From contig NC_054704.1 of NCBI RefSeq assembly GCF_016097555.1, positions 81,105,952-81,169,951 on the forward strand: a stretch of 64,000 nucleotides of DNA. Reading direction: 5' to 3'. Position 1 is the first letter of the stretch. Each line of letters opens with the position of its first letter. Both the position numbers and the translations under genes were made by a program. Origin of the DNA: Gigantopelta aegis (Eukaryota > Mollusca > Gastropoda > Neomphalida > Peltospiridae). A model generated the notes under the pieces. That model did no database searches. It had not been told where the DNA came from and saw only the letters and a program-made list of their open reading frames with translations. This document shows, one piece after another, positions 6,837-58,002 of this stretch.

Positions 6837-7042
6837 CCACCACCCCCGCCCCCCAAATTCCAAACCAAAGCAAAATAACAACAAAATAAATCAATACAAA
6901 AACCCACCCACGCCTCCTCAGAAACAAAACAAAAACAAAACAAAACCAACCCTACCAAATCAAGCAAATCAATCAAAGAAAGAAACAGTAAAAACAGATG
7001 TAACATTTCAATAATAATCAGAAATAATAAAGTGTATCATAC

Positions 7043-7380
7043 CTTCTGAGCGCCACCTGGGCCGCCATTATTCTCTGTCTCTCAACGACCAATAAACAAT
7101 TAGCACACTGACAGTCGCGCCATCTACAGTATCGCTTATGTCCCTTGAGGCACGACACGACGCCATGGTTGCGACATCGTGCGCATTTAGGCGTCCGTAG
7201 AAGACGTCGAGGTACACTTTTAGACTTGTCGCTGTTTCCGCCGGCGGTCAGGTTTTCCTGTATCTCTGCGCGCGTTTCGTTCTCGTCGACGCTTTCATCG
7301 ACGCTTTCGTCGTCGTCGTCTTCCTCGATATCGAGATATTCGTCGTCGTCTAGTTGCACCGAGTCGCTATCCTCGTCCAT
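7043..7380 (-). CDS. DMRT2: DMRT2-like transcription factor, exon with start codon and DM domain
   Basis: The first 113 residues are encoded here. DM-domain proteins bind the DNA minor groove through two intertwined zinc sites. Both are complete: Cys66, Cys69, His81, Cys85 and His72, Cys90, Cys92, Cys95. The run [18 protein letters not shown] followed by [19 protein letters not shown] is closest, from memory, to vertebrate DMRT2 rather than DMRT1 or DMRT3. The N-terminus is strongly acidic (Asp/Glu-rich, about residues 2-36). I chose ATG at 7378-7380 because a splice acceptor (TTTCTGTTTCAG) ends three bases upstream, so the longer open frame before it is intron. The donor is AG|GTATGA at 7037-7042, phase 2. 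The DMRT2 family acts in somite, muscle and nervous-system development in other animals; the role here is inferred. Confidence 0.92.
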
Positions 7381-7448
7381 CGTCTGAAACAGAAACCAGC
7401 AGAAGTTGAAATACGTTTTAAAGAGGGCATTCATATATACCTAATGGA

Positions 7449-9492: not shown

Positions 9493-10790
9493 ATTAATTG
9501 AACAGTAATAATGGACATAGATACATGTAAAACATAGTTTATAGTTTTATGGGGTTAACAGAGAAGCTAGAAATAATAAAAATAAATAGAAGGAAGGAGA
9601 TAAAGAAAGAAGAAAGAAAGACTGAAGGAAAAGTAAATCAATTTAAAGAATAAATTGAAATAGAAAATAGTACATTTATCATTATTATTATTGTCATCAC
9701 CACTACCATTACCATGTACTACTACTGTATTATTATTTCACACATATAGGGATAATGTATACGATGTAATTTAACTTAAAATCAAAACAGAATAGTAAAA
9801 AAAGATGGAAAAAAAAAGAGTGCTTGGAAGGGTAAGAAACATGTGTATGGCAGAGAATAAAAAACATTGAAAGAAGGCAATATTGTGATGAAATCTATTT
9901 CCAGACAAACTAAATAGCTGCTTTTATTGCTGTCGGTAAGAAGTGGTATTGTTAAGTTTCATTCAATAAAAAGGTCAAGCCAAGGAATCCATTTTTATGG
10001 AACGTTTCATAGCTACAATTTAAAAAAAAAATCGATATCAAATTTTAAAACATATTTTTAACACTATTATTGTTTTCCCTGTATTTTCATACTGTAGATA
10101 TAATACTTGATATCTACAGTTAACCAATTTATGAAGCTTCTCTTTTTGTTATTAGTTATACCAAATATGACAATATCTTTGCTGAAATTGATTTCGTTTC
10201 CTGTTTTACATAGAATACATGATTTTACATCTTTCCATAAATTATGAACTTTGTCACACTTAAAAAAAAAAAAAAATGTAGTAGTGTTTCTGGATAATTG
10301 CTACAAAAGCTACAAGCATTAAAATCAATATAATGAATAATATGTAAGAATTTGTTAGCCGCAAGGATTCTGTGCAAAATTTTATATTGAAACCATGCTA
10401 AAGATGTATCTTTCACGCTATGGAAAGGGAGAGTATAAAACGTTTCCCATTCCTGTATATTATACATAAATCCCTCATTTGCATATTTTATTTGTGCTTT
10501 TGGTATTGTTATTCTAGTATTTAGTATATCGTATATATGTTTGCAGCCACTTTTGTCTTTTAACAACATGCTTAGTTTAAATGTGAAAATGAGATTTTTT
10601 AATGATGTAAAAATTGTAAGTTGTTTAAGTTATGTATAAAGGATTAGCATTTATTAATGAAGCATATTGCAAAAACATTCGTAGGTATGTGATATTTTGC
10701 TATGAAATCTTCGTATTTTAGGAAGTCTCCTTGTTCATTCAATAGATCAAAACGAATTTAACAAAGAAATAGATGAATACAAACACAAAT
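9337..10790 (-). mobile_element. LINE (non-LTR retrotransposon), 5' truncated, C-terminal end and 3' UTR
   Basis: Read on the minus strand, 10225-10569 is an open frame resembling the C-terminal region of LINE reverse transcriptases: FHSVKDTSLAWFQYKILHRI, AANKFL, then a CxxC (CSFCSNYPETLLHF). Just upstream, in another frame, FDLLNEQGDFLKYEDF continues the same family pattern. Downstream, a shifted frame continues with NLWKDVKSCI...FGITNN. The 3' end is TTTTTTGGGGTCAATAAAGT, a typical LINE terminus with a polyA signal. At least two frame breaks separate the pieces, so it is dead. Assignment to an L1/Tx1-like clade is a guess. Confidence 0.7.
9451..9488. repeat. (TA)n microsatellite
   Basis: About 19 uninterrupted TA units inside the LINE 3' region. 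Confidence 0.95.
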
Positions 10791-12200: not shown

Positions 12201-12521
12201 AAAATATTTTACTTAACGACGCACTCAATACATTTTATTTTACGGTTGTATGGCGTCAGACATATGGTTAAGGACCACACAGATATTGAGAGAGGAAACC
12301 CGCTGTCGCCACTTCATGGGCTACTCTATTCGGTTAGCAGCAATGGATCTTTTATATGCACCATCCCACAGACAGGATAACACATACCACGGCCTTTGAT
12401 ATACCAGTCGTGGTGCACTGGCTGGAACAAGAAATAGCCCAATCTGCCCACCGACGGGGATCGATCCCAGACCAACCGCGCATCGAGCGGGTGTTTTACC
12501 ACTGGGCTACGTCCCGCCCCC
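12201..12521 (-). mobile_element. Full-length SINE, head A and tail A
   Basis: The minus-strand head GGGGCGGGACGTAGCCCAGT (A box) is followed by a B-box-like GGGATCGATCCCC, the core GGCCGTGGTATGTG and tail A ending GTCGTTAAGTAAAATATTTT. It is one of the best-preserved copies. Confidence 0.9.
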
Positions 12522-25328: not shown

Positions 25329-25654
25329 AAAAGAAAGAAATGTTTTATTTAACGACGCACTGAACACATTTTATTTACGGTTATATGGCGTCAAACATAT
25401 GGTTAAGGACCACACAAATAATGCAAGAGGAAACCAACTGTCGCCACTTCATGGGCTACTCTTTTCGATTAGCAGCAAGGAATCTTTTATATGCACCATC
25501 CCACAGACAGGGTAGTACGTACCATGGCCTTTGACATACCAGTCGTGGTGCACTGGCTGGAACGAGAAATAGCGCAATGGGCCCACCGACGGAGATCGAT
25601 CCCAGACCGATCGCGCATCGAGCGAGCGCTATACCACTGGGCTACGTCCCGCCC
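25329..25654 (-). mobile_element. Full-length SINE, head A and tail A, with 13-bp TSD
   Basis: The head has TAGCCCAGTGGTATAGCGCT and the B box has GGGATCGATCTCC. Tail A ends GTCGTTAAATAAAACATTTC. The direct repeat AAACTGAAATAAA occurs at 25316-25328 and 25655-25667. Confidence 0.93.
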
Positions 25655-39366: not shown

Positions 39367-40868
39367 TATACTCTTCAAAAGAAGAAACGCAAAACCACAT
39401 TGTCGTAACATTTGGAGAATTGATTTAATTATTGAATGGTGAGTCCGATAATTACCAAATGTTGCAGGATTGTTCACAATTCACTCTAGTCCATTGTGAG
39501 TAAGTGATAGGACACACCACCAAGGTCAAGGTCATCTGGAGTCAATACCGGGTGTGGCCTCCGCGTGTGTTGACAACTGCCTGGCACCGCCTGCCCATTG
39601 AAGCAACCAGAGTACGGATGACGTCCCGGGGGATGGTGGCCCACTCGGCCTGCAAGGCTGCTGCCAGCTCGGGCAGGGTCTGGGGCTGTGGTTGTCGCTG
39701 TCCGAAGCGTCGGTCCAACTCGTCCCATAGATGCTTAATTGGGTTCAAATCCGGTGATATCGATGGCCAAGGAAGGACATTAATGTTGTTGTTCTGTAGG
39801 AAAGCCGTTGTGAGACGTGCTGTGTGAGGCCTGGCGTTGTCATGTTGGAACACTGCGTTGGCGTTGGCCATAACTGGAACGATGTGTGGCCGGAGGATCT
39901 GGTCAATGTAGCCCTGTGCATTCAGGTTGCCCTGCACGTGGACCAGGTCAGTTCTGCCAGTGTGTGAGATGGCTGCCCACACCATGACACTATCCCCGCC
40001 GAATCTGTCCACTTCCTGCACGCAGTTTGCCGCATAACGTTCACCACGACGCCTAAACACGCGACATCTTCCATCATGACGTCGGAGCAGAAATCGGGAC
40101 TCGTCACTGAACCACACCTGTCTCCATCGCAGTTGAGGCCATTGTCGATGAATCTGGCACCACTGCAGTCGGAGTCGACGGTGTTGTGGTGTTAAGATGA
40201 CACCTCGAACTGGACGTCTGGCACGAATTCCTACCTCACGTAGGCGGTTCCGTACGGTCTGGTCGGATATCCTGCGCAAACCTGGTATTGCTGCGGCTGT
40301 GGAGGTGGCAGTAGTCAATCGTTCCCGAAGGTGGCGTACCCGGATGTAGCGGTCCTGCCCGGGGGTAGTGACCCGTGGTCGACCGGATCTAGGGAGGTCA
40401 CGTGTTGATCCATGTTGCTGGTAACGGTCCCACAGTCTGGAGATGGTGCTTGGGGACACATGGAATGCCCTGGCAACGGCCGTTCTGGATTCGCCTGCGT
40501 CTAGTCGGCCGATGGCATTGTTTCTCTGCGGTTCACTGAGACGTGGCATGTCCTGGATTGTCAACTGTCGGCCAGATACAGAGGCCAGGCAAGCGAACAC
40601 CCTGCACTTTTATACTGTCGGTGTTCATGTTGCACGTGCAGACAACGCACGTGCAGTGGTGACATGGTTTGCACGTGGCTGCGTTTTTGCGAATATTCAC
40701 ATTTTGGAACTTTATTGTACAGTAGCTGCGTTTTATCGAATGTAACCGTGGGAATGTGTTTGGGACATGCAATGACCTTATATTCACAAAGCATGAACCG
40801 GTAGGAAACATAAAATCGGAGTTATAACCCATTTGTACCCTTTTGCGTTTCTTTTTTTGAAGAGTATA
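39367..40868 (-). mobile_element. Tc1/mariner transposon, copy 1, with 28-bp TIRs
   Basis: The termini are TATACTCTTCAAAAGAAGAA on the left and the complement of TATACTCTTCAAAAAAAGAA on the right. They match over 28 bp with one mismatch, and TA is at the ends. The length is about 1.5 kb with one intact transposase frame on the minus strand. A second copy is at 55250-56735. Confidence 0.95.
39542..40549 (-). CDS. Tc1/mariner-like transposase, intact frame but catalytic Glu replaced
   Basis: Cut-and-paste transposase. The open frame has 352 codons; I prefer the second Met (MPRLSEPQR), the usual Tc1 start, giving 335. Numbered from the first Met: a helix-turn-helix domain at about 26-62, the GRPR hinge near 73-76, a second DNA-binding helix set at about 111-126, and the DDE domain with Asp166 (FSDESRF) and Asp254 (HDNARPHTA). 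The third acidic residue, expected 34 residues later in SPDLNPIE, is Lys289 (NPIKHLW). Asp203 replaces a Gly conserved in the sister copy (GGGSVMVW). It is therefore probably inactive despite the full-length frame. Its neighbours are only the terminal repeats. Confidence 0.93.
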   Translation of the reverse strand: MPRLSEPQRNNAIGRLDAGESRTAVARAFHVSPSTISRLWDRYQQHGSTRDLPRSGRPRVTTPGQDRYIRVRHLRERLTTATSTAAAIPGLRRISDQTVRNRLREVGIRARRPVRGVILTPQHRRLRLQWCQIHRQWPQLRWRQVWFSDESRFLLRRHDGRCRVFRRRGERYAANCVQEVDRFGGDSVMVWAAISHTGRTDLVHVQGNLNAQGYIDQILRPHIVPVMANANAVFQHDNARPHTARLTTAFLQNNNINVLPWPSISPDLNPIKHLWDELDRRFGQRQPQPQTLPELAAALQAEWATIPRDVIRTLVASMGRRCQAVVNTRGGHTRY

Positions 40869-46295: not shown

Positions 46296-46590
46296 TAAAT
46301 GTGTTTACAGTAAAAATATTCTAACTCTTTTGATGGTTGGTTACGTGCTCACAATACCGGTATGGCATGGATTTCAGATCTAACAATATCTACTGTTTTA
46401 AATATTTTATTTATTTTAACACATATTATTAATATCGACACATGGAGACATTTTTTTGTTGAAATAAAAGTTCATGTTGGGACCCCAATATATTGACACA
46501 AAGCTAATATCGATTCAATCTTATCGACTCGAAGGATATATCGACTCAGGCAAGATCGACACAGCATATATTAGTCTTGTTCCACTTTAG

Positions 46591-46636
46591 TGTTCGCTTG
46601 ATGCGCCGTCGGTCTGGGATCGATCCCCGTCGGTGG
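46591..46636 (+). mobile_element. SINE head A fragment
   Basis: GTTCGCTTGATGCGCCGTCG and GGGATCGATCCCCGTCGGTG are the end of head A. It is cut off by the next, opposing SINE. Confidence 0.75.
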
Positions 46637-46940
46637 ATTTTTATTTAACGACGCACTCAACACATTTTATTTACGGTTATATGGCGTCGGACATATGGTT
46701 AAGGACCACACAGATATTAAGGAAAGAAACCCGCTGTCGCCACTTCATGGGTTACTCTTTTCGATTAGCAGCAAGGTATCTTTACATGCTCCACCCCATA
46801 GACAGGATAGCACATAACACAGCCTTTGATATACCAGTCGTGGTGCACTGGCTGAAGCGAGAAATAGCCCAATGGGCCCACTGACAGGGATCGATCCCAA
46901 ACCGACCGCGCATCAAGCGAGCGCTTTACCACTGGGCTAC
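46637..46940 (-). mobile_element. Full-length SINE, head A and tail A
   Basis: Minus-strand head TAGCCCAGTGGTAAAGCGCT, B box, core and tail A ending GTGCGTCGTTAAATAAAAAT. It abuts a plus-strand head fragment on the left and another SINE on the right. Confidence 0.9.
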
Positions 46941-48250: not shown

Positions 48251-48830
48251 ATTGTCTCTCCAGCCACTTGGTTTCTTTTGTTGAAGAGAAATGTTTCGTA
48301 TATTTCATTTGCTTCGCCTAAGGAAAATTTGCTCAATTTGTTTTAGCACGACGTCTATGTCAGTTGCGTCATCTTCTTCCCCAAAAGAAAACTCGTCAAA
48401 GAAATCAAAGGAAGAAGGAAGGAAGGAAGGAAATATTTTATTTAACGACGCACTCAACACATTTTATTTAAGGTTATATGACGTCGGACATATAGTTAAG
48501 GACCACACAGATATAGAGAGGAAATCCGCTGTCGCCACTTCAAGGGCTACTCTTTTCGATTAGCAGCAAGGGGTGTTTTATATGTACCATCCCACAGACA
48601 GGATTTTACATACCACGGCCTTTGTTACACCAGTTGTGGAGCACTGGCTGAAACAAGAAATAACCAATGGGGCCACCGACGGGGATCGATCCTAAACTGA
48701 CCGCGCATCGAACAAGCGCTTTACCACTGGGCTACGTCCCGCCCCTAAGAAATCAAAGGCTTCCTCACCAACAAATGCTAAAACGACAGTTCTTAATGCG
48801 GTATTTTGTTTCATTGGTTTTTGAATTTTC
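48250..48830 (-). mobile_element. LTR-retrotransposon gag-like fossil fragment
   Basis: On the minus strand the sequence on both sides of a SINE resembles the Gag N-terminal region of Gypsy-type LTR retrotransposons (acidic, helical, leading to a basic segment). Only a fragment remains. It is broken in several places, no LTRs or pol region were found nearby, and it was old enough to be a passive target for the SINE at 48412-48746. Family assignment is tentative. Confidence 0.35.
48412..48746 (-). mobile_element. Full-length SINE, head A and tail A, with 13-bp TSD
   Basis: Head GGGGCGGGACGTAGCCCAGT, B box AGGATCGATCCCCGTCGG, and tail A ending with a (TTCC)n stretch on the minus strand. The direct repeat AAGAAATCAAAGG occurs at 48399-48411 and 48747-48759. 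Confidence 0.92.
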
Positions 48831-51784: not shown

Positions 51785-51861
51785 TTATTGTCCAGTCGCA
51801 TCGAAGTCCGCAACGTCATCGTCAGTAGTCTCCTCGTCTTCATCCACCACAGCCTCGATCA
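51785..51861 (-). CDS. Secreted EF-hand protein, last coding exon (acidic tail)
   Basis: After an acceptor TTTTATTGTAG (AG at 51862-51863) the exon supplies two bases completing a Met codon, then 24 codons and TAA. The encoded tail (residues 122-145, VVDEDEETTDDDVADFD) has 11 Asp/Glu in 24 residues. Acidic tails of this kind can bind calcium weakly and are common in secreted or luminal calcium-binding proteins. Phase 1 matches the previous exon exactly. The (20 bp)x6 minisatellite lies about 30 bp upstream in the intron. Confidence 0.8.
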
Positions 51862-51892
51862 CTACAATAAAATTAATTTTATACAAAGACTT

Positions 51893-52012
51893 GTGGGCCT
51901 AAACAGTCACCAGTGGGCCTAAACAGTCACCAGTGGGCCTAAACAGTCACCAGTGGGCCTAAACAGTCACCAGTGGGCCTAAACAGTCACCAGTGGGCCT
52001 AAACAGTCACCA
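51893..52012 (+). repeat. Minisatellite, six perfect 20-bp units
   Basis: GTGGGCCTAAACAGTCACCA is repeated six times without error. It lies in the last intron of the EF-hand gene, 30 bp upstream of the acceptor of the final exon in gene orientation. Perfect identity suggests recent expansion. Confidence 0.97.
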
Positions 52013-52549
52013 GAGTAAATAGACGACCGGCAGAATACACATTTTAGGAGTGCGTGTGTGTCAGAACCACCGAATTGTTTTTGGATTATCGGTAAACTTG
52101 ACCACTGGGGACCCAACAAATGGGCAACTACATTTATGACATTTACACATTAAACATGTATAAATGAACCTCTTGGAAGTCCATTTAACGACACTACAGC
52201 ACATAAGCAGATCAGGTTTTTAAAACTGGCTTCCCCTACCTTTCAGCCCCACCCTCTGGCTCCGAGATGAGAACTAGCCAATTCACCGCCATCCCTCCTA
52301 TTCATGCCATGTGAACTTCCTACAAAAGTTGATTGGAATCGTCAGTTTTGGGTCACGTTGTACGACTGTTAAGGCCCATTTTGTAACATTTACCCATTGT
52401 AACCGTCTACTGCGTAATAAAAATTGGGCCCCAGTTTATAAACACCCAATCTTTAACAAATGCTTAAAACGTTATCGCAGGTGTTAAATATTTGCCTATT
52501 TAAAAACACTGATTAACATTGAATTATGGTCCTGTGCGGAAACAGAGCT

Positions 52550-52690
52550 AGATGTAAATGCAGACATTACATTTTCTCATTCTGTCCAGTGCTCCACGAC
52601 TTGCTATATCAAAAACAATGCATACACTAGTATCAATGGGAGAGACTTGCAGCGTATTAATCTCAAGTGGATGTAGCAGATATGGTTGTG
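52550..52690 (+). mobile_element. Possible very degraded SINE
   Basis: CTGTCCAGTGCTCCACGACT and TGCTATATCAAAAACAATGC resemble the SINE core (CAGTGCACCACGACTGG, TATATCAAAGG). Nothing else remains. Confidence 0.3.
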
Positions 52691-53012
52691 TTAAATGCAG
52701 CAGCCAATAGTTGTGGTATACGACAACTGTAGATTTGTTTTGTTTTATGCCAACAATCTTGTTGAATATGCTTCCACCAAAGGGAGTTTCCCGAGAAAAT
52801 TTAATAAACATTTATACGACTATTGTTAATTTCTCATTTTAATACTAAAATCCATGTCGGTGGTTCCGTAATATATACAATAAAATTACCTCCCCCCCCC
52901 CGATAATTATGCTTTACCAGGACATTTCAAGGTTTTAGATGTGAGCGGTATACAAGTCTTGGAATAAACATTCAACATGCTTTCAAATCCAGATAGGAAC
53001 CATGTTACTTAC

Positions 53013-53072
53013 TTTTTCCCATGCTCTTGGAATAGAACAGTTTCAGTTCAACCAAATTCAGTTTTCCATCAT
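53013..53072 (-). CDS. Secreted EF-hand protein, exon 3 (second half of EF-hand 2)
   Basis: 60 nt between acceptor TTTTTCTTCAG (AG at 53073-53074) and donor GTAAGT (53007-53012). Two bases complete His101, then DGKLNLVELKLFYSKSMGK (residues 102-120), then one base. Joined to exon 2 it restores a canonical 12-residue loop: Asp98, Asn100, Asp102, Lys104, Asn106, Glu109. The exact repair of the loop across the intron is the strongest evidence that both exons are real. A 23-bp minisatellite begins about 40 bp upstream of the acceptor. Confidence 0.85.
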
Positions 53073-53112
53073 CTGAAGAAAAATCGATTTAATTAAGAAA
53101 TTGCTACCACAT

Positions 53113-53320
53113 ACTAAAGCCCTATTACACTACTTACTAAAGCCCTATTACACTACTTACTAAAGCCCCTATTACACTACTTACTAAAGCCCTATTACAC
53201 TACTTACTAAAGCCCTATTACACTACTTACTAAAGCCCCATTACACTACTTACTAAAGCCCCATTACACTACTTACTAAAGCCCCATTACACTACTTACT
53301 AAAGCCCCATTACACTACTT
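53113..53320 (+). repeat. Minisatellite, nine 23-bp units
   Basis: ACTAAAGCCCTATTACACTA-type units, nine in a row. Units 1-5 have CCCTATT and units 6-9 have CCCCATT, so two variant blocks expanded separately. It is located in intron 2 of the EF-hand gene next to the exon 3 acceptor. Confidence 0.97.
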
Positions 53321-53559
53321 AATAAGCAGTAACGTTTTCAGTTTAGAAACTAATCGACTTAGTTGACTGCGTCTAAAGGGAACCGAAGTAACACCTAATT
53401 TATGTTTTCATTTTAGTTTTAAAATCATGTTCAAAATTCAATGTTTCCTAATTTCATACAAGTAGTCGATAACCGATGGAACTGCCAAAGTAATTATACC
53501 TTTAGTATCTGTGCATTGCATTGATAAATGCAGTGACAATGCAACCGAAACACTATACA

Positions 53560-53900
53560 ATAACCGTTCAACCACCGCCTTCAGTGTACGACCCCAACTC
53601 CCCGAATTGGGACGAAAGTGGCCGAATGTGGGCAACATTGATTTAAGCATTACTGCGAAACAGCTATGTAGGGTTGCAAACAGTACGCATTTCTACATGA
53701 ATTACATTAATTACAACCAATATTGAGTAAAATTAAAATGCAAGGTGGAATGTTTCAGGCCACCAATTTCCCGGAACATTTCATAATTTTTGTCTGAAAT
53801 TCAGGATTTACTTCAGCTCTAAGGGGGGCGAGGTCGAGGGTGGGGGGTGGGGGTGGGGAGGACTTATTAAAGGCATTTCCGGGACTACTTTTAAAATAAC
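53560..53900 (+). repeat. Dispersed G-rich repeat W, copy 2
   Basis: GTAGGGTTGCAAACAGTACG, ATTTCTACATGAATTACATT and GGTGGGGGGTGGGGGTGGGG match parts of 34441-34840 in order. Intronic. Confidence 0.5.
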
Positions 53901-54210
53901 GCATCTTTTGTATTCTACTAGGTCTTATTGGTGACAACGGGCTTGTTCTCTTAGACCCCCAGACTTTGACGAGCACGATTCCAATAGTCTACTATCGACT
54001 AAGCTATTATATCGTCAATGTTTACCACCATTATAATGCCGACATAATTGAATGTTACAGAATATTGTCCCTCCACATTTAAACTCCAACCATTTGGTTA
54101 AGGCGACGCCACACGATACGAGTGCCTCTTACGATAATAGCTACGAGAACCAGCATTCCGAGAGTACTGCTAAATCAATACATGTCCCCACAAAAAAATT
54201 TTCTCCTAAA

Positions 54211-54362
54211 TTCAAGGGACATAACTATGGAAAATGGGTAAATCGCCATGAAAGTCAAACTGAAACAATACATGATATAGCTACACAATTTCTGACCAAT
54301 ATTATTAGGCATTGTGAAAAGAAAAAAACGTCTGGAAAACTATGTGGCACAATCCGATGGAC
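54211..54362. repeat. Dispersed repeat with CATAACT...ATGGGTAAATCG motif
   Basis: CAAGGGACATAACTATGGAA, AATGGGTAAATCGCCATGAA and GTCTGGAAAACTATG follow an order I know from a very common noncoding molluscan repeat. The 113-codon frame over it is incidental. Confidence 0.55.
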
Positions 54363-54530
54363 AATAGTGTCCTCAGGCACAGTAGAGGACTAATAAACTA
54401 ATGCCTTGCAACCGATGAAACCGTAATGTTAATTCTTGTGAATTAGCAATTCTGTTTATTTTCGTGTATTTTCTCGTGTGGCGTCGTCCATCATGGTTAC
54501 GCCCCCCCCAAGTTTAAGCATAAGACTCAC

Positions 54531-54687
54531 GGTTTTTATCAGCGTCGCTGAACGTCGTCTTTAGAACCGAGTTGGTTACTTTAAGACCGGTTACTTGAGC
54601 AATCTCGTCAAGCTCAACAAACCGATCACCGTTTAGGTCGAGGTCATCGTGAACATTGACCAGTTCGTCTGCAGCTACGCGTTTGGA
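54531..54687 (-). CDS. Secreted EF-hand protein, exon 2 (EF-hand 1 and start of EF-hand 2)
   Basis: 157 nt between acceptor TTTTCTTTCAG (AG at 54688-54689) and donor GTGAGT (54525-54530): 52 codons plus one base. EF-hand 1 has the loop Asp65, Asn67, Asp69, Phe71, Glu73, Glu76 (DLNGDRFVELDE), a standard calcium-binding set. The exon ends inside the second loop (SDADKN plus C), completed by exon 3. The entering helix of hand 1 is KRVAADELVNVHDDL and the linker is IAQVTGLKVTNSVLKTTF. It begins in phase 0, compatible with exon 1. The family is an EF-hand pair; I cannot name an orthologue. Confidence 0.87.
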
Positions 54688-54839
54688 CTGAAAGAAAAGT
54701 CACAAGACACTTCGTGATTCATGCAAAGAGTTTGTATAATGGTTTTGTGACGGTACATGCTCTTAATTTGTTTTCGCCTGTGGCGATATTAATTGTTTTA
54801 AAAGGCCGTGTGCAGTTCCAAATTGCACTTAGCCAGGTG

Positions 54840-54965
54840 GGCAACTTGTTACGTAATACTTCTGCGCGACGGTCCTCGATCGGTACGCCTAATACACACC
54901 CAGAGCAGGTGCGGAGGCCATGTGGCGAGTAGTTACGTAATACCTCTGCGAGTGCGGTTTTTACA
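54840..54965 (+). repeat. Imperfect direct repeat around TTACGTAATAC
   Basis: TGTTACGTAATACTTCTGCG and AGTTACGTAATACCTCTGCG lie about 80 bp apart in intron 1 of the EF-hand gene. Confidence 0.6.
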
Positions 54966-55249
54966 ACCGTGATTTGGCGACGATGACGACAGCCAGACTG
55001 AGATCAGAGAAAAATATACCGACTCTGGGAGAGGTGGAAATTCAGATGATAGGGGAGGACCGCCTTGTACCCCCAGGCAATTTTCTGATTTTATAATAAA
55101 TAGCTAGGGCTTAGAGATATCTGGGAGAAGCAAAAAGGACAGAACGATAGAAAGGTATCCCGGGGGAACGTTAGTCCGGTTGGACTTTGGTAAATATTTT
55201 ATTTCTGCTCTGTTGTATAACCTTGATGTGACTGATGTGACTTTAAATA

Positions 55250-56735
55250 TATACTCTTCAAAAGAAGAAACGCAAAACCACATTGTCGTAACATTTGGAG
55301 AATTGATTTAATTATTGAATGGTGAGTCCGATAATTACCAAATGTTGCAGGATTGTTCACAATTCACTCTAGTCCATTGGAGTAAGTGATAGGACACACC
55401 ACCAAGGTCAAGGTCATCTGGAGTCAATACCGGGTGTGGCCTCCGCGTGTGTTGACAACTGCCTGGCACCGCCTGCCCATTGAAGCAACCAGAGTACGGA
55501 TGACGTCCCGGGGGATGGTGGCCCACTCGGCCTGCAAGGCTGCTGCCAGCTCGGGCAGGGTCTGGGGCTGTGGTTGTCGCTGTCGGAGGCGTCGGTCCAA
55601 CTCGTCCCATAGATTCTCAATTGGGTTCAAATCCGGTGATATCGATGGCCAAGGAAGGACATTAATGTTGTTCTGTAGGAAAGCCGTTGTGAGACGTGCT
55701 GTGTGAGGCCTGGCGTTGTCATGTTGGAACACTGCGTTGGCGTTGGCCATAACTGGAACGATGTGTGGCCGGAGGATCTGGTCAATGTAGCCCTGTGCAT
55801 TCAGGTTGCCCTGCACGTGGACCAGGTCAGTTCTGCCAGTGTGTGAGATGGCTGCCCACACCATGACACTACCCCCGCCGAATCTGTCCACTTCCTGCAC
55901 GCAGTTTGCCGCATAACGTTCACCACGACGCCTATACACGCGACATCTTCCATCATGACGTCGGAGCTCGTCACTGAACCACACCTGTCTCCATCGCAGT
56001 TGAGGCCATTGTCGATGAATCTGGCACCACTGCAGTCGGAGTCGACGGTGTTGTGGTGTTAAGATGACACCTCGAACTGGACGTCTGGCACGAATTCCTA
56101 CCTCACGTAGGCGGTTCCGTACGGTCTGGTCGGATATCCTGCGAAAACCTGGTATTGCTGCGGCTGTGGAGGTGGCAGTAGTCAATCGTTCCCGAAGGTG
56201 GCGTACCCGGATGTAGCGGTCCTGCCCGGGGGTAGTGACCCGTGGTCGACCGGATCTAGGGAGGTCACGTGTTGATCCATGTTGCTGGTAACGGTCCCAC
56301 AGTCTGGAGATGGTGCTTGGGGACACATGGAATGCCCTGGCAACGGCCGTTCTGGATTCGCCTGCGTCTAGTCGGCCGATGGCATTGTTTCTCTGCGGTT
56401 CACTGAGACGTGGCATGTCCTGGATTGTCAACTGTCGGCCAGATACAGAGGCCAGGCAAGCGAACACCCTGCACTTTTATACTGTCGGTGTTCATGTTGC
56501 ACGTGCAGACAACGCACGTGCAGTGGTGACATGGTTTGCACGTGGCTGCGTTTTTGCGAATATTCACATTTTGGAACTTTATTGTACAGTAGCTGCGTTT
56601 TATCGAATGTAACCGTGGGAATGTGTTTGGGACATGCAATGACCTTATATTCACAAAGCATGAACCGGTAGGAAACATAAAATCGGAGTTATAACCCATT
56701 TGTACCCTTTTGCGTTTCTTTTTTTGAAGAGTATA
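55250..56735 (-). mobile_element. Tc1/mariner transposon, copy 2, with 28-bp TIRs
   Basis: The same termini as copy 1 (TATACTCTTCAAAAGAAGAA and complement) and near-identical throughout. It has 12-bp and 3-bp deletions in the transposase relative to copy 1. It lies in the first coding intron of the EF-hand gene, in the same orientation as that gene. Confidence 0.95.
55424..56416 (-). CDS. Tc1/mariner-like transposase, intact frame with two small deletions
   Basis: The open frame of 347 codons from 56467 gives 330 from the preferred Met (MPRLSEPQR). Compared with copy 1, four residues are missing directly after the first catalytic Asp (FSDELRR instead of FSDESRFLLRR). One Asn is lost between the second Asp and the Glu, so the spacing is 33 rather than 34. 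The third acidic residue is Glu284 (NPIENLW) and the GGGSVMVW motif is normal. The DDE residues are thus all present but the geometry around two of them is altered, so activity is doubtful. Confidence 0.93.
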   Translation of the reverse strand: MPRLSEPQRNNAIGRLDAGESRTAVARAFHVSPSTISRLWDRYQQHGSTRDLPRSGRPRVTTPGQDRYIRVRHLRERLTTATSTAAAIPGFRRISDQTVRNRLREVGIRARRPVRGVILTPQHRRLRLQWCQIHRQWPQLRWRQVWFSDELRRHDGRCRVYRRRGERYAANCVQEVDRFGGGSVMVWAAISHTGRTDLVHVQGNLNAQGYIDQILRPHIVPVMANANAVFQHDNARPHTARLTTAFLQNNINVLPWPSISPDLNPIENLWDELDRRLRQRQPQPQTLPELAAALQAEWATIPRDVIRTLVASMGRRCQAVVNTRGGHTRY

Positions 56736-57648
56736 TTTTAATACTGTATTATACCAATATTCTTTAGACAGTGTCTTCGGTCATCTGACGAAGTAAATCG
56801 TAGACTTATTGTTCTAAATTTATACGAGTATTTGGTAATATAAAGCTTAGCCAGTCATCCTAGAAGACCTAGGTAAACTGTAGGTTATTGTCTTTGTGAT
56901 AATTACCAGTATTAATTCTGTGTTACAAGGTTACTGAATGAGTAGTTAGGGTTAATTAAAAATTAACCAGTTAGGAATAGAGCTGCAATTCCTTTATTAA
57001 TTAACAACTTCTAGAAGCGTTTCTCAATTATCACACGTGTGGGTGTTGTGTCACGGTGAAGTGATTCGCATATTGTGTAAACTAGACACCTAGAGATTAA
57101 CTAATTAAGTGATCAGTTCTGGGTTGTTATTATTGTTATTAATTAACTACTGCGGCTGTACATTTATCAGCGTAGGTTAATACAGATTCCAAAGTGTATT
57201 GTGTTTTGTTGTGTTTTCTAGTGAACTAAACGTGCTATAATAATATATACTTTATATAAGATCGTATCTCTGATCATACCTAGACGAGCCATACTCGGGT
57301 AAATACCGCCCGTTACAGAGAGATCTAATAGATATACAGTTAGGAGAGATATTTGGACAATCGTGTTTTATTCAGTTACGGGTATTATAGAATCCCCGTG
57401 ACAGGTTTCTATGTTTCTATGTGGGGAGTTTTTCGTTACCAACAACACTTCAAAACGTTATGAATACAAATGTCTTTTTGGACGATATTTTGACCACTAA
57501 AAACCTACATACAAGGTTAACAGACTTGAAATCTTTGTCTAGTTAGTTTATTACTAAGTTATTGTCAAAATTAGGTAATCTTAAAGCTATTATCGCTTTG
57601 TAAAAACGGGGCCATCATTACTTAGTTTTAGAAAATTAGAAATTTTAC
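56736..57648 (-). other. EF-hand gene intron 1, distal part
   Basis: AT-rich with no repeat family recognised. A further small exon in this interval or in 54690-55249 cannot be excluded, although exons 1 and 2 join in phase without one. Confidence 0.4.
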
Positions 57649-57792
57649 CATGTCGCCACGTTTAGTCTCGATCCGCCTCTGGCAGTCATAGCAGAAAGCC
57701 CGACAGTCTTCTGGGCTGATGACGCCAAAGCCGTCCACGGACTGGAGGACCAAGGTCAAGGCCGACATAAGTACAAAGAAATAGGTCTTCAT
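57649..57792 (-). CDS. Secreted EF-hand protein, first coding exon with signal peptide
   Basis: 48 codons from ATG (57790-57792) to a GTAAAA donor (57643-57648), phase 0. Residues 1 to about 21 form a typical signal peptide: MKTYF, then a hydrophobic stretch VLMSALTLVL, with probable cleavage near SVDG. The mature start carries Cys30, Cys34 and Cys37 (DCRAFCYDC). The total predicted protein is about 145 residues: signal peptide, short Cys motif, EF-hand pair, acidic tail. An acceptor GTTTTCAG ends one base before the ATG, so I take the longer frame upstream (MHINVFR) as intron and expect a noncoding exon further up. The likely role is extracellular or secretory-pathway calcium binding; a shell-matrix role is only a guess. 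Confidence 0.8.
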
Positions 57793-58002
57793 TCTGAAAA
57801 CATTAATGTGCACCGAATCAATAAATTAAGGCCATAATAAGTACCAAGAAATGTCAAAATATATACTCGATGAAATTTATTCAAACAGGGCCATAGCTGT
57901 CTAAACCAAATTAAAACAAATGTGTTATCGTTTTACAAACTTTACAATCGTTCCAGTAGTTCAACGTGGGCCATGTTCCCAAGTCATCGTTTGTGTTACT
58001 AT

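Follow-up and report, generated by a model that had tools for sequence, protein, structure and literature searches.

The closest described system to the gene treated here, a small EF-hand gene on the minus strand of a 64,000-nucleotide stretch of the genome of the gastropod Gigantopelta aegis (G000:C6:81105952-81169951; the whole stretch is called the window), is mytimycin. Mytimycin is an antifungal-peptide precursor of mytilid mussels with a signal peptide, a cysteine-rich and usually cationic peptide, a dibasic site and an acidic C-terminal extension that carries an EF-hand domain (PMC8004829). In the cited passages of that source, mytimycin is multigene, a non-coding exon in the 5' untranslated region (5'-UTR) is mentioned, the function of the EF-hand domain is called unknown, and restriction to Mytilida is suggested by the authors (PMC8004829). 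The mature peptides are given there with charges of 0 to +10, ten invariable cysteines plus accessory ones, and 54 amino acids in the variant studied, while the gene is described as having three exons and two introns (PMC8004829; PMC3210125).

EF-hand proteins have also been described from the shell and mantle of molluscs. As far as the cited passages go, Hdh-SMP5 of abalone has 134 amino acids, a signal peptide and its highest expression in the mantle (PMC10741955), EFCB1 and EFCB2 are EF-hand proteins of the shell proteome of the limpet Lottia (PMC4094399), and the pearl-oyster mantle contributes EF-hand genes with signal peptides (EFCBP, PFMG1-like) (PMC3120837).

The window gene is interpreted here, with a probability of roughly two in three, as belonging in diverged form to a multigene family that encodes secreted prepropeptides, in which an acidic EF-hand pro-region accompanies a peptide that would be released from the precursor. 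The gene model, the related loci, and the charge and constraint of their peptide are presented first, followed by the alternatives and the remaining features of the window.

The gene and its predicted product

Between positions 51785 and 57792 of the window, on the minus strand, four exons join into a single open frame of 145 codons and a stop, with intron phases 0, 1 and 1 (Table 1). These exons had been proposed in an original prediction made from the letters of the DNA, and rebuilding the joins from its coordinates returned the same 145 residues, stop and phases. It had also described a calcium loop split by an intron and then restored, and loop 2 (DKNHDGKLNLVE, residues 98-109) is indeed interrupted within its fourth residue by intron 2. 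The signal peptide, three-cysteine motif, EF-hand pair, acidic tail and poly(A) signal that it listed were all recovered, as a hydrophobic N-terminus, cysteines at residues 30, 34 and 37, loops at residues 65-76 and 98-109, an acidic exon 4 and AATAAA beyond the stop. On the joined protein, the Pfam EF-hand pair (EF-hand_7, PF13499) scores 38.6 bits (E 1.4e-9), which exceeds the curated cut-off of 30; the exon 2 frame alone scores 16.7 bits, and exon 3 alone has no EF-hand match in Pfam. At the level of sequence, a well-supported four-exon gene model is confirmed.

The best 12-residue hydropathy of the N-terminus is 2.62, and the best value past residue 22 is 0.6. Residues 1-21 are taken as the signal peptide, with the cleavage site after Gly21 assigned by judgement; if cut there, the mature protein has an isoelectric point (pI) of 4.35 and keeps all three cysteines, spaced C-x3-C-x2-C. 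The charge of the peptide segment is 0 when counted to QRR and +1 when counted to TKR. Both loops match the 12-residue EF-hand pattern with ligands that fit calcium coordination, and calcium binding is predicted from sequence alone. The C-terminus, DATGQ, is without a retention signal for the endoplasmic reticulum (ER). The product is probably secreted, a small EF-hand protein whose tail is acidic.

Comparison of the whole protein with solved structures gave EF-hand pairs only, among 60 listed of 71 matches (E up to 1); those to troponin C and others are restricted to the EF-hand pair, with a best E of 2.7e-5, and the first 48 residues matched no solved structure. All NCBIfam matches were far under the cut-off, the first 100 residues had no match among phage records, the 33 pattern matches in viral contigs included no relative, and no convincing paralogue was present within the 64-kb window. 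The original prediction could not match the protein to a named one, and this remained so: in the open-licence PMC literature, no printed match was found for five of its motifs, nor for six motifs of the first exon of its relatives.

Related loci in the same genome

The genome search covered 1.149 billion bases. With the window protein as query, 18 matches were found, three of them its own exons and 15 elsewhere. For the exon of a relative that encodes leader and peptide there were 17 matching places; in 15 the match runs along the peptide (80-99% identity, a stop in one of them), and in two it is confined to the leader. No leader match accompanied the EF-hand place C8:23290183, and three leader matches stood without an EF-hand match, so the combined searches give 18 related loci besides the window, a count that is a lower bound, as such searches are for large families. 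The loci are distributed over C1 (two), C2 (four), C8 (four at 23.3 Mb and three at 47.9 Mb), C9 (two) and the unplaced C2033 (three). C2033 may be another haplotype of the cluster at 47.9 Mb on C8, so independent genes besides the window may number fewer than 18. The leader at C8:23297213 was joined to an EF-hand exon 6 kb off by position only.

Ten of the 18 loci were modelled through exon 3 with donors and acceptors sought at the phases of the window gene, and seven of these through exon 4. Exon 1 donors in the ten score 3.9 to 7.7, and the other listed in-phase donors score below 2. Consensus splice sites are present at the sought positions, the joins restore the EF loops, and intron 2 has the same position and phase as in the window gene. 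The exon 4 homologues, sought by a pattern derived from the first relatives, start with FLEA, matching MIEA of the window gene; by this pattern none was found in L014, L018 and L023, which for want of exon 4 were kept out of the ratios of non-synonymous to synonymous substitution (dN/dS). Likewise left out, as no complete model was obtained, were L043, L044, L020, L041 (exon 2 interrupted), L042, L016, L011 and L019. In-frame stops occur in the leader of L016 (C9:58872742), in exon 3 of L011 and in exons 2 and 3 of L019 and L042.

A constrained cationic peptide ahead of an acidic EF-hand region

In 15 of the 18 loci a strongly positive peptide with cysteines, reminiscent of natural antibiotics, is encoded in the leader exon behind the leader; this peptide in the modelled loci is followed by a basic site and then by the EF-hand region. 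After the leader, the relatives read WFFRSVRRIR(F/I)SPYHTLGCMAACKWARSWACKACKRKRG or a near variant, with cysteines spaced C-x3-C-x7-C-x2-C, and continue with an acidic linker and the EF-hand region. The basic site after the peptide is RKRG in the relatives, while the window gene has RR and KR. Across the seven complete relatives, the charge is +10 or +11 for the peptide and -10 to -19 for the remainder, EF-hand region included.

As simple counts on these seven related models (21 pairs), mean dN/dS is lowest in the peptide (0.03) and higher in the signal peptide (0.25) and the EF region (0.31); in the linker, where 14 pairs were usable, it is 0.27. Synonymous distance (dS) is alike in peptide (0.46) and signal peptide (0.45), and the constraint on the peptide is therefore not accounted for by recent copying. 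On these figures, the cationic peptide does truly appear to be the most constrained part of the predicted precursor.

The common plan of the family would comprise a signal peptide, a small cysteine peptide, a basic cleavage site, an acidic pro-region formed by the EF-hand pair and a short tail. In the mechanism proposed for the family, the acidic EF-hand region would load calcium and fold within the calcium-rich secretory pathway, where it may hold and neutralize the basic peptide, masking its charge until cleavage. Cleavage at the basic site would then free the peptide, which may act as an antimicrobial or similar secreted peptide; the cationic four-cysteine peptide is a concrete candidate antimicrobial. 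The window gene might release a different, non-cationic peptide, or its product might act uncut as a secreted calcium-binding protein. Because of the charge, the constraint and the layout, service as a carrier or mask is the most likely part for the EF-hand pro-domain. Sea water contains about 10 mM calcium; a secreted EF-hand pair would be permanently loaded, and a structural or carrier part therefore fits better than a switch. The sequences themselves show the gene model, the family, its splice phases, its charges and how constrained the peptide is, whereas secretion, processing by cleavage, binding of calcium, neutralization and any antimicrobial effect are inferred.

Several points weigh against this interpretation. 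The dN/dS values are simple counts on few related sequences. The cationic peptide matched no Pfam family and no solved chain, so its proposed activity is without support from homology. The agreement in phase cannot be counted as independent, because the sites of the relatives were sought at the phases of the window gene, and the tails of L013 and L021 are weakly acidic or non-acidic. The window gene has no cationic part, which makes the pairing of charges inapplicable to it, although a charge as low as 0 is also given for mature mytimycin peptides (0 to +10; PMC8004829). Its cysteines number three, an odd count.

The window gene within the family

With the seven complete relatives, the window protein shares 45-48% identity. 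Its exon 1 segment keeps VDG, SP, C-x-A-x-C and KRG, and in the alignment each of its three cysteines falls on a cysteine of the relatives; RSVRRIR, which is basic, and one cysteine have no counterpart in it. The window gene shares the leader, the core of the peptide, the EF region and the phases, and lacks the cationic C-x3-C-x7-C-x2-C peptide. Its exon 2 shows 51-62% identity to those of 15 other copies, against 56-96% between those copies, and in the exon 2 tree it lies on the longest branch, at a position that is weakly supported (0.25). Against the seven relatives, its EF region gives dN of 0.39-0.48 and dS of about 1.4-2.2, and its signal peptide, which is less constrained, dN of 0.16-0.28 and dS of 0.34-0.54. 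By these comparisons the window gene has diverged within the predicted family and has a short peptide segment devoid of charge, and the three-cysteine motif may be regarded as the reduced counterpart of the cationic peptide. The gene offers a natural contrast, in which the carrier is kept and the cationic cargo absent.

The lack of most of the cationic peptide in a gene whose EF-hand region is kept (dN 0.39-0.48, dS about 1.4-2.2) would also be expected if the EF-hand region were itself the product, with some other extracellular job in mucus, egg fluid, sperm or a gland store, and the N-terminal segment a remnant. The hydrophobic leader and a C-terminus free of an ER-retention signal accord with such a role. 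The persistence of SP, CxAxC and KRG in the peptide segment would be needless in a mere remnant, and this explanation is considered quite unlikely.

Biomineralization, in which an extracellular EF-hand protein would bind calcium at the mantle or shell with its acidic tail touching the carbonate mineral, is distinctly unlikely; such a role has been proposed for Hdh-SMP5, EFCB1/EFCB2 and EFCBP. The mature pI of 4.35 would suit it, and shell and mantle EF-hand proteins of similar size do exist in molluscs, namely Hdh-SMP5, EFCB1/EFCB2 and the pearl-oyster genes, in the passages cited (PMC10741955; PMC4094399; PMC3120837). Most of the nearest relatives found for the window gene (15 of the 18 loci), however, encode a conserved peptide of positive charge, a feature unmentioned for the known shell EF-hand proteins in those passages, and the peptides encoded by the Hdh-SMP5 primers were not seen in the window protein. 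Of the original prediction, the small, probably secreted protein with an EF-hand pair and acidic tail stands, whereas nothing observed specifically favours the candidate role that it named, the handling of calcium outside cells in the mantle or elsewhere.

A broader proposal, tentative and on balance unlikely, is that the EF-hand pro-region acts as a carrier that can be reused for different, exchangeable secreted peptides, with calcium loading controlling folding, charge masking and release. On a shared scaffold of leader, linker and EF-hand region, the genome would carry three kinds of cargo: the nearly invariant peptide with four cysteines and a charge of +10 or +11, the three-cysteine segment of the window gene, which has no charge, and a cysteine-free segment bearing Trp, Gly and Tyr in L011 and L019. 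In the latter two, WLTIPTVKGWWYTSKRR (L011, 5284-5436) and WWFISNKWLSTGRGWGYASKRR (L019, 5207-5374) stand in place of the peptide, and the DNA of leader and linker is near that of their siblings while the peptide stretch differs. Two points speak against such a reusable carrier. The cysteine-free class may be dead, given the stops in exon 3 of both loci and in exon 2 of L019, and the window gene may simply carry the common peptide in a state of decay. If true, the proposal would account for the EF-hand in mytimycin precursors as an architecture common to unrelated peptides.

Support for the exon joins

The exon joins were compared with chance. Among 3088 AG sites of the minus strand, only two rebuild the EF loop with exon 2, the proposed acceptor being one of them. 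The reverse test discriminates less, because 12 joins from 4118 GT sites rebuilt the loop with exon 3. A tail with at least 40% Asp/Glu was given solely by the proposed exon 4 among 849 downstream acceptors opening at least 20 residues, and by 5 of 1144 in a plus-strand control. From 54.7 to 64 kb, the proposed exon 1 holds the single ATG with a hydrophobic leader (threshold 2.0) and a phase-0 donor scoring at least 0. Splice-site scores, computed with approximate weights, were mixed: the donors of exons 1, 2 and 3 rank 32nd, 40th and 1st among 473, and the acceptors of exons 2, 3 and 4 rank 3rd, 7th and 53rd among 357.

Middling scores, as for the exon 1 and exon 2 donors and the exon 4 acceptor, are what might be seen in a relic on its way to a pseudogene, or if exon 1 or exon 4 were modelled wrongly. 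The Tc1-like element in intron 1, the minisatellites beside two acceptors and the in-frame stops in four family copies (L016, L019, L011 and L042) point the same way. All four window exons are nevertheless intact and in phase, their boundaries agree with those of the relatives, and dN of the EF region is well under dS, which together leave a relic or a faulty model very improbable. The minisatellites lie just upstream of the acceptors of exon 4 (51893-52013; 20-bp unit, 6.1 copies) and exon 3 (53112-53325; 23-bp unit, 9.3 copies).

Directly before the ATG, an AG plus one base is present in the window gene, in L044 and in every one of the 16 related loci tested (as cag in 13 and tag in three), compared with 50 of 1223 control ATGs. 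As this arrangement is widely kept, a non-coding 5' exon upstream is likely, and the gene probably has a 5'-UTR intron and hence a non-coding first exon ahead of the ATG. Shared descent alone could likewise preserve so few bases.

Features of the window

The features of the gene are collected in Table 1. The Tc1-like transposon in intron 1 occupies 55246-56741, with a transposase open reading frame at 55424-56467 (minus strand) and 32-bp inverted ends that are 94% complementary. A second copy near 40 kb (39542-40600) shows 98.5% identity over 1512 bp, which suggests that the element entered intron 1 recently. Elsewhere in the window, an exon with a DM DNA-binding domain (7021-7440, minus strand; Pfam DM, E 4.6e-24) resembles DMRT2, a sign of an animal source. 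A dispersed repeat of about 245 bp (e.g. 46590-46881, 18654-18404, 12207-12451, 25343-25586 and 48436-48676) has eight copies longer than 200 bp, 81-89% identical to the query, and further partial or weaker ones. An open frame at 10228-10629 (minus strand) weakly matches a reverse-transcriptase zinc-binding domain (16.4 bits, below the cut-off).

Table 1. Positions in the window of the features of the EF-hand gene, in transcript order.
Feature	Position	Strand	Remarks
Acceptor-like AG (57795-57794) and one untranslated base ahead of the ATG	57793..57795	-	predicted end of a 5'-UTR intron
Coding exon 1	57649..57792	-	144 nt; signal peptide and short peptide segment; leader homologous to related loci
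Peptide segment FGVISPEDCRAFCYDCQRRIETKR, residues 22-45	57658..57729	-	three Cys; counterpart of the cationic four-Cys peptide of the relatives
Intron 1, phase 0	54688..57648	-	contains Tc1-like transposon
Coding exon 2	54531..54687	-	157 nt; EF-hand 1 and beginning of EF-hand 2
EF-hand loop 1 DLNGDRFVELDE, residues 65-76	54604..54639	-	Arg replaces the usual Gly at position 6
Coding exon 3	53013..53072	-	60 nt; remainder of EF-hand loop 2 and exit helix
Coding exon 4	51785..51861	-	77 nt including stop; MIEAVV... acidic tail
Poly(A) signal AATAAA	51718..51723	-	begins 62 nt beyond the stop codon

Comparison with known systems

Among general EF-hand proteins, those of the calmodulin or troponin C kind have four EF-hands and are cytosolic, and those of the CREC (reticulocalbin) kind have about six EF-hands and an HDEL-like C-terminus. 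Both kinds were rejected for the window protein, which has two loops, a hydrophobic leader and the ending DATGQ. A SPARC-type calcium-binding profile matched residues 51-109 with 19.0 bits, under the Pfam cut-off of 22; unlike SPARC, the window protein showed no other SPARC-type domain in the Pfam search.

Hdh-SMP5, EFCB1/EFCB2, EFCBP and the PFMG1-like genes resemble the window gene in coding for mollusc EF-hand proteins, several with a signal peptide, and Hdh-SMP5 is also small and acidic. In the passages cited, Hdh-SMP5 has three predicted EF-hand regions, in contrast to the two loops of the window protein, and a cationic peptide is unmentioned for any of these proteins (PMC10741955; PMC4094399; PMC3120837). 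Identity with Hdh-SMP5 gained no support from four of its published primers (PMC10741955): none of the peptides that they encode in three frames was seen in the window protein, and no primer has its first 14 bases anywhere in the window.

The precursor layout of the family found no match in the passages seen of five further sources (PMC8933548; PMC3374290; PMC4517812; PMC9808598; PMC12466427). Precursors of mytilin, myticin and myticalin are described as sharing a signal peptide, a cationic peptide and an anionic C-terminal extension (PMC8004829; PMC3210125; see also PMC5577615). That extension is given as having no defined three-dimensional structure (PMC8004829), whereas an EF-hand pair occupies this place in the family described here.

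Mytimycin comes closest, and is likened here by its described layout, not by sequence. As in the passages cited for mytimycin, an acidic EF-hand extension lies behind a dibasic site in the family described here, and the layout is shared (PMC8004829). The differences are four cysteines in the relatives and three in the window protein against ten in mytimycin, and four coding exons against three exons (PMC8004829; PMC3210125). For want of the ten invariable cysteines the family does not belong to mytimycin, though the two remain alike in plan. A family that shares this plan around a different, near-invariant peptide makes a general role of the EF-hand pro-region testable.

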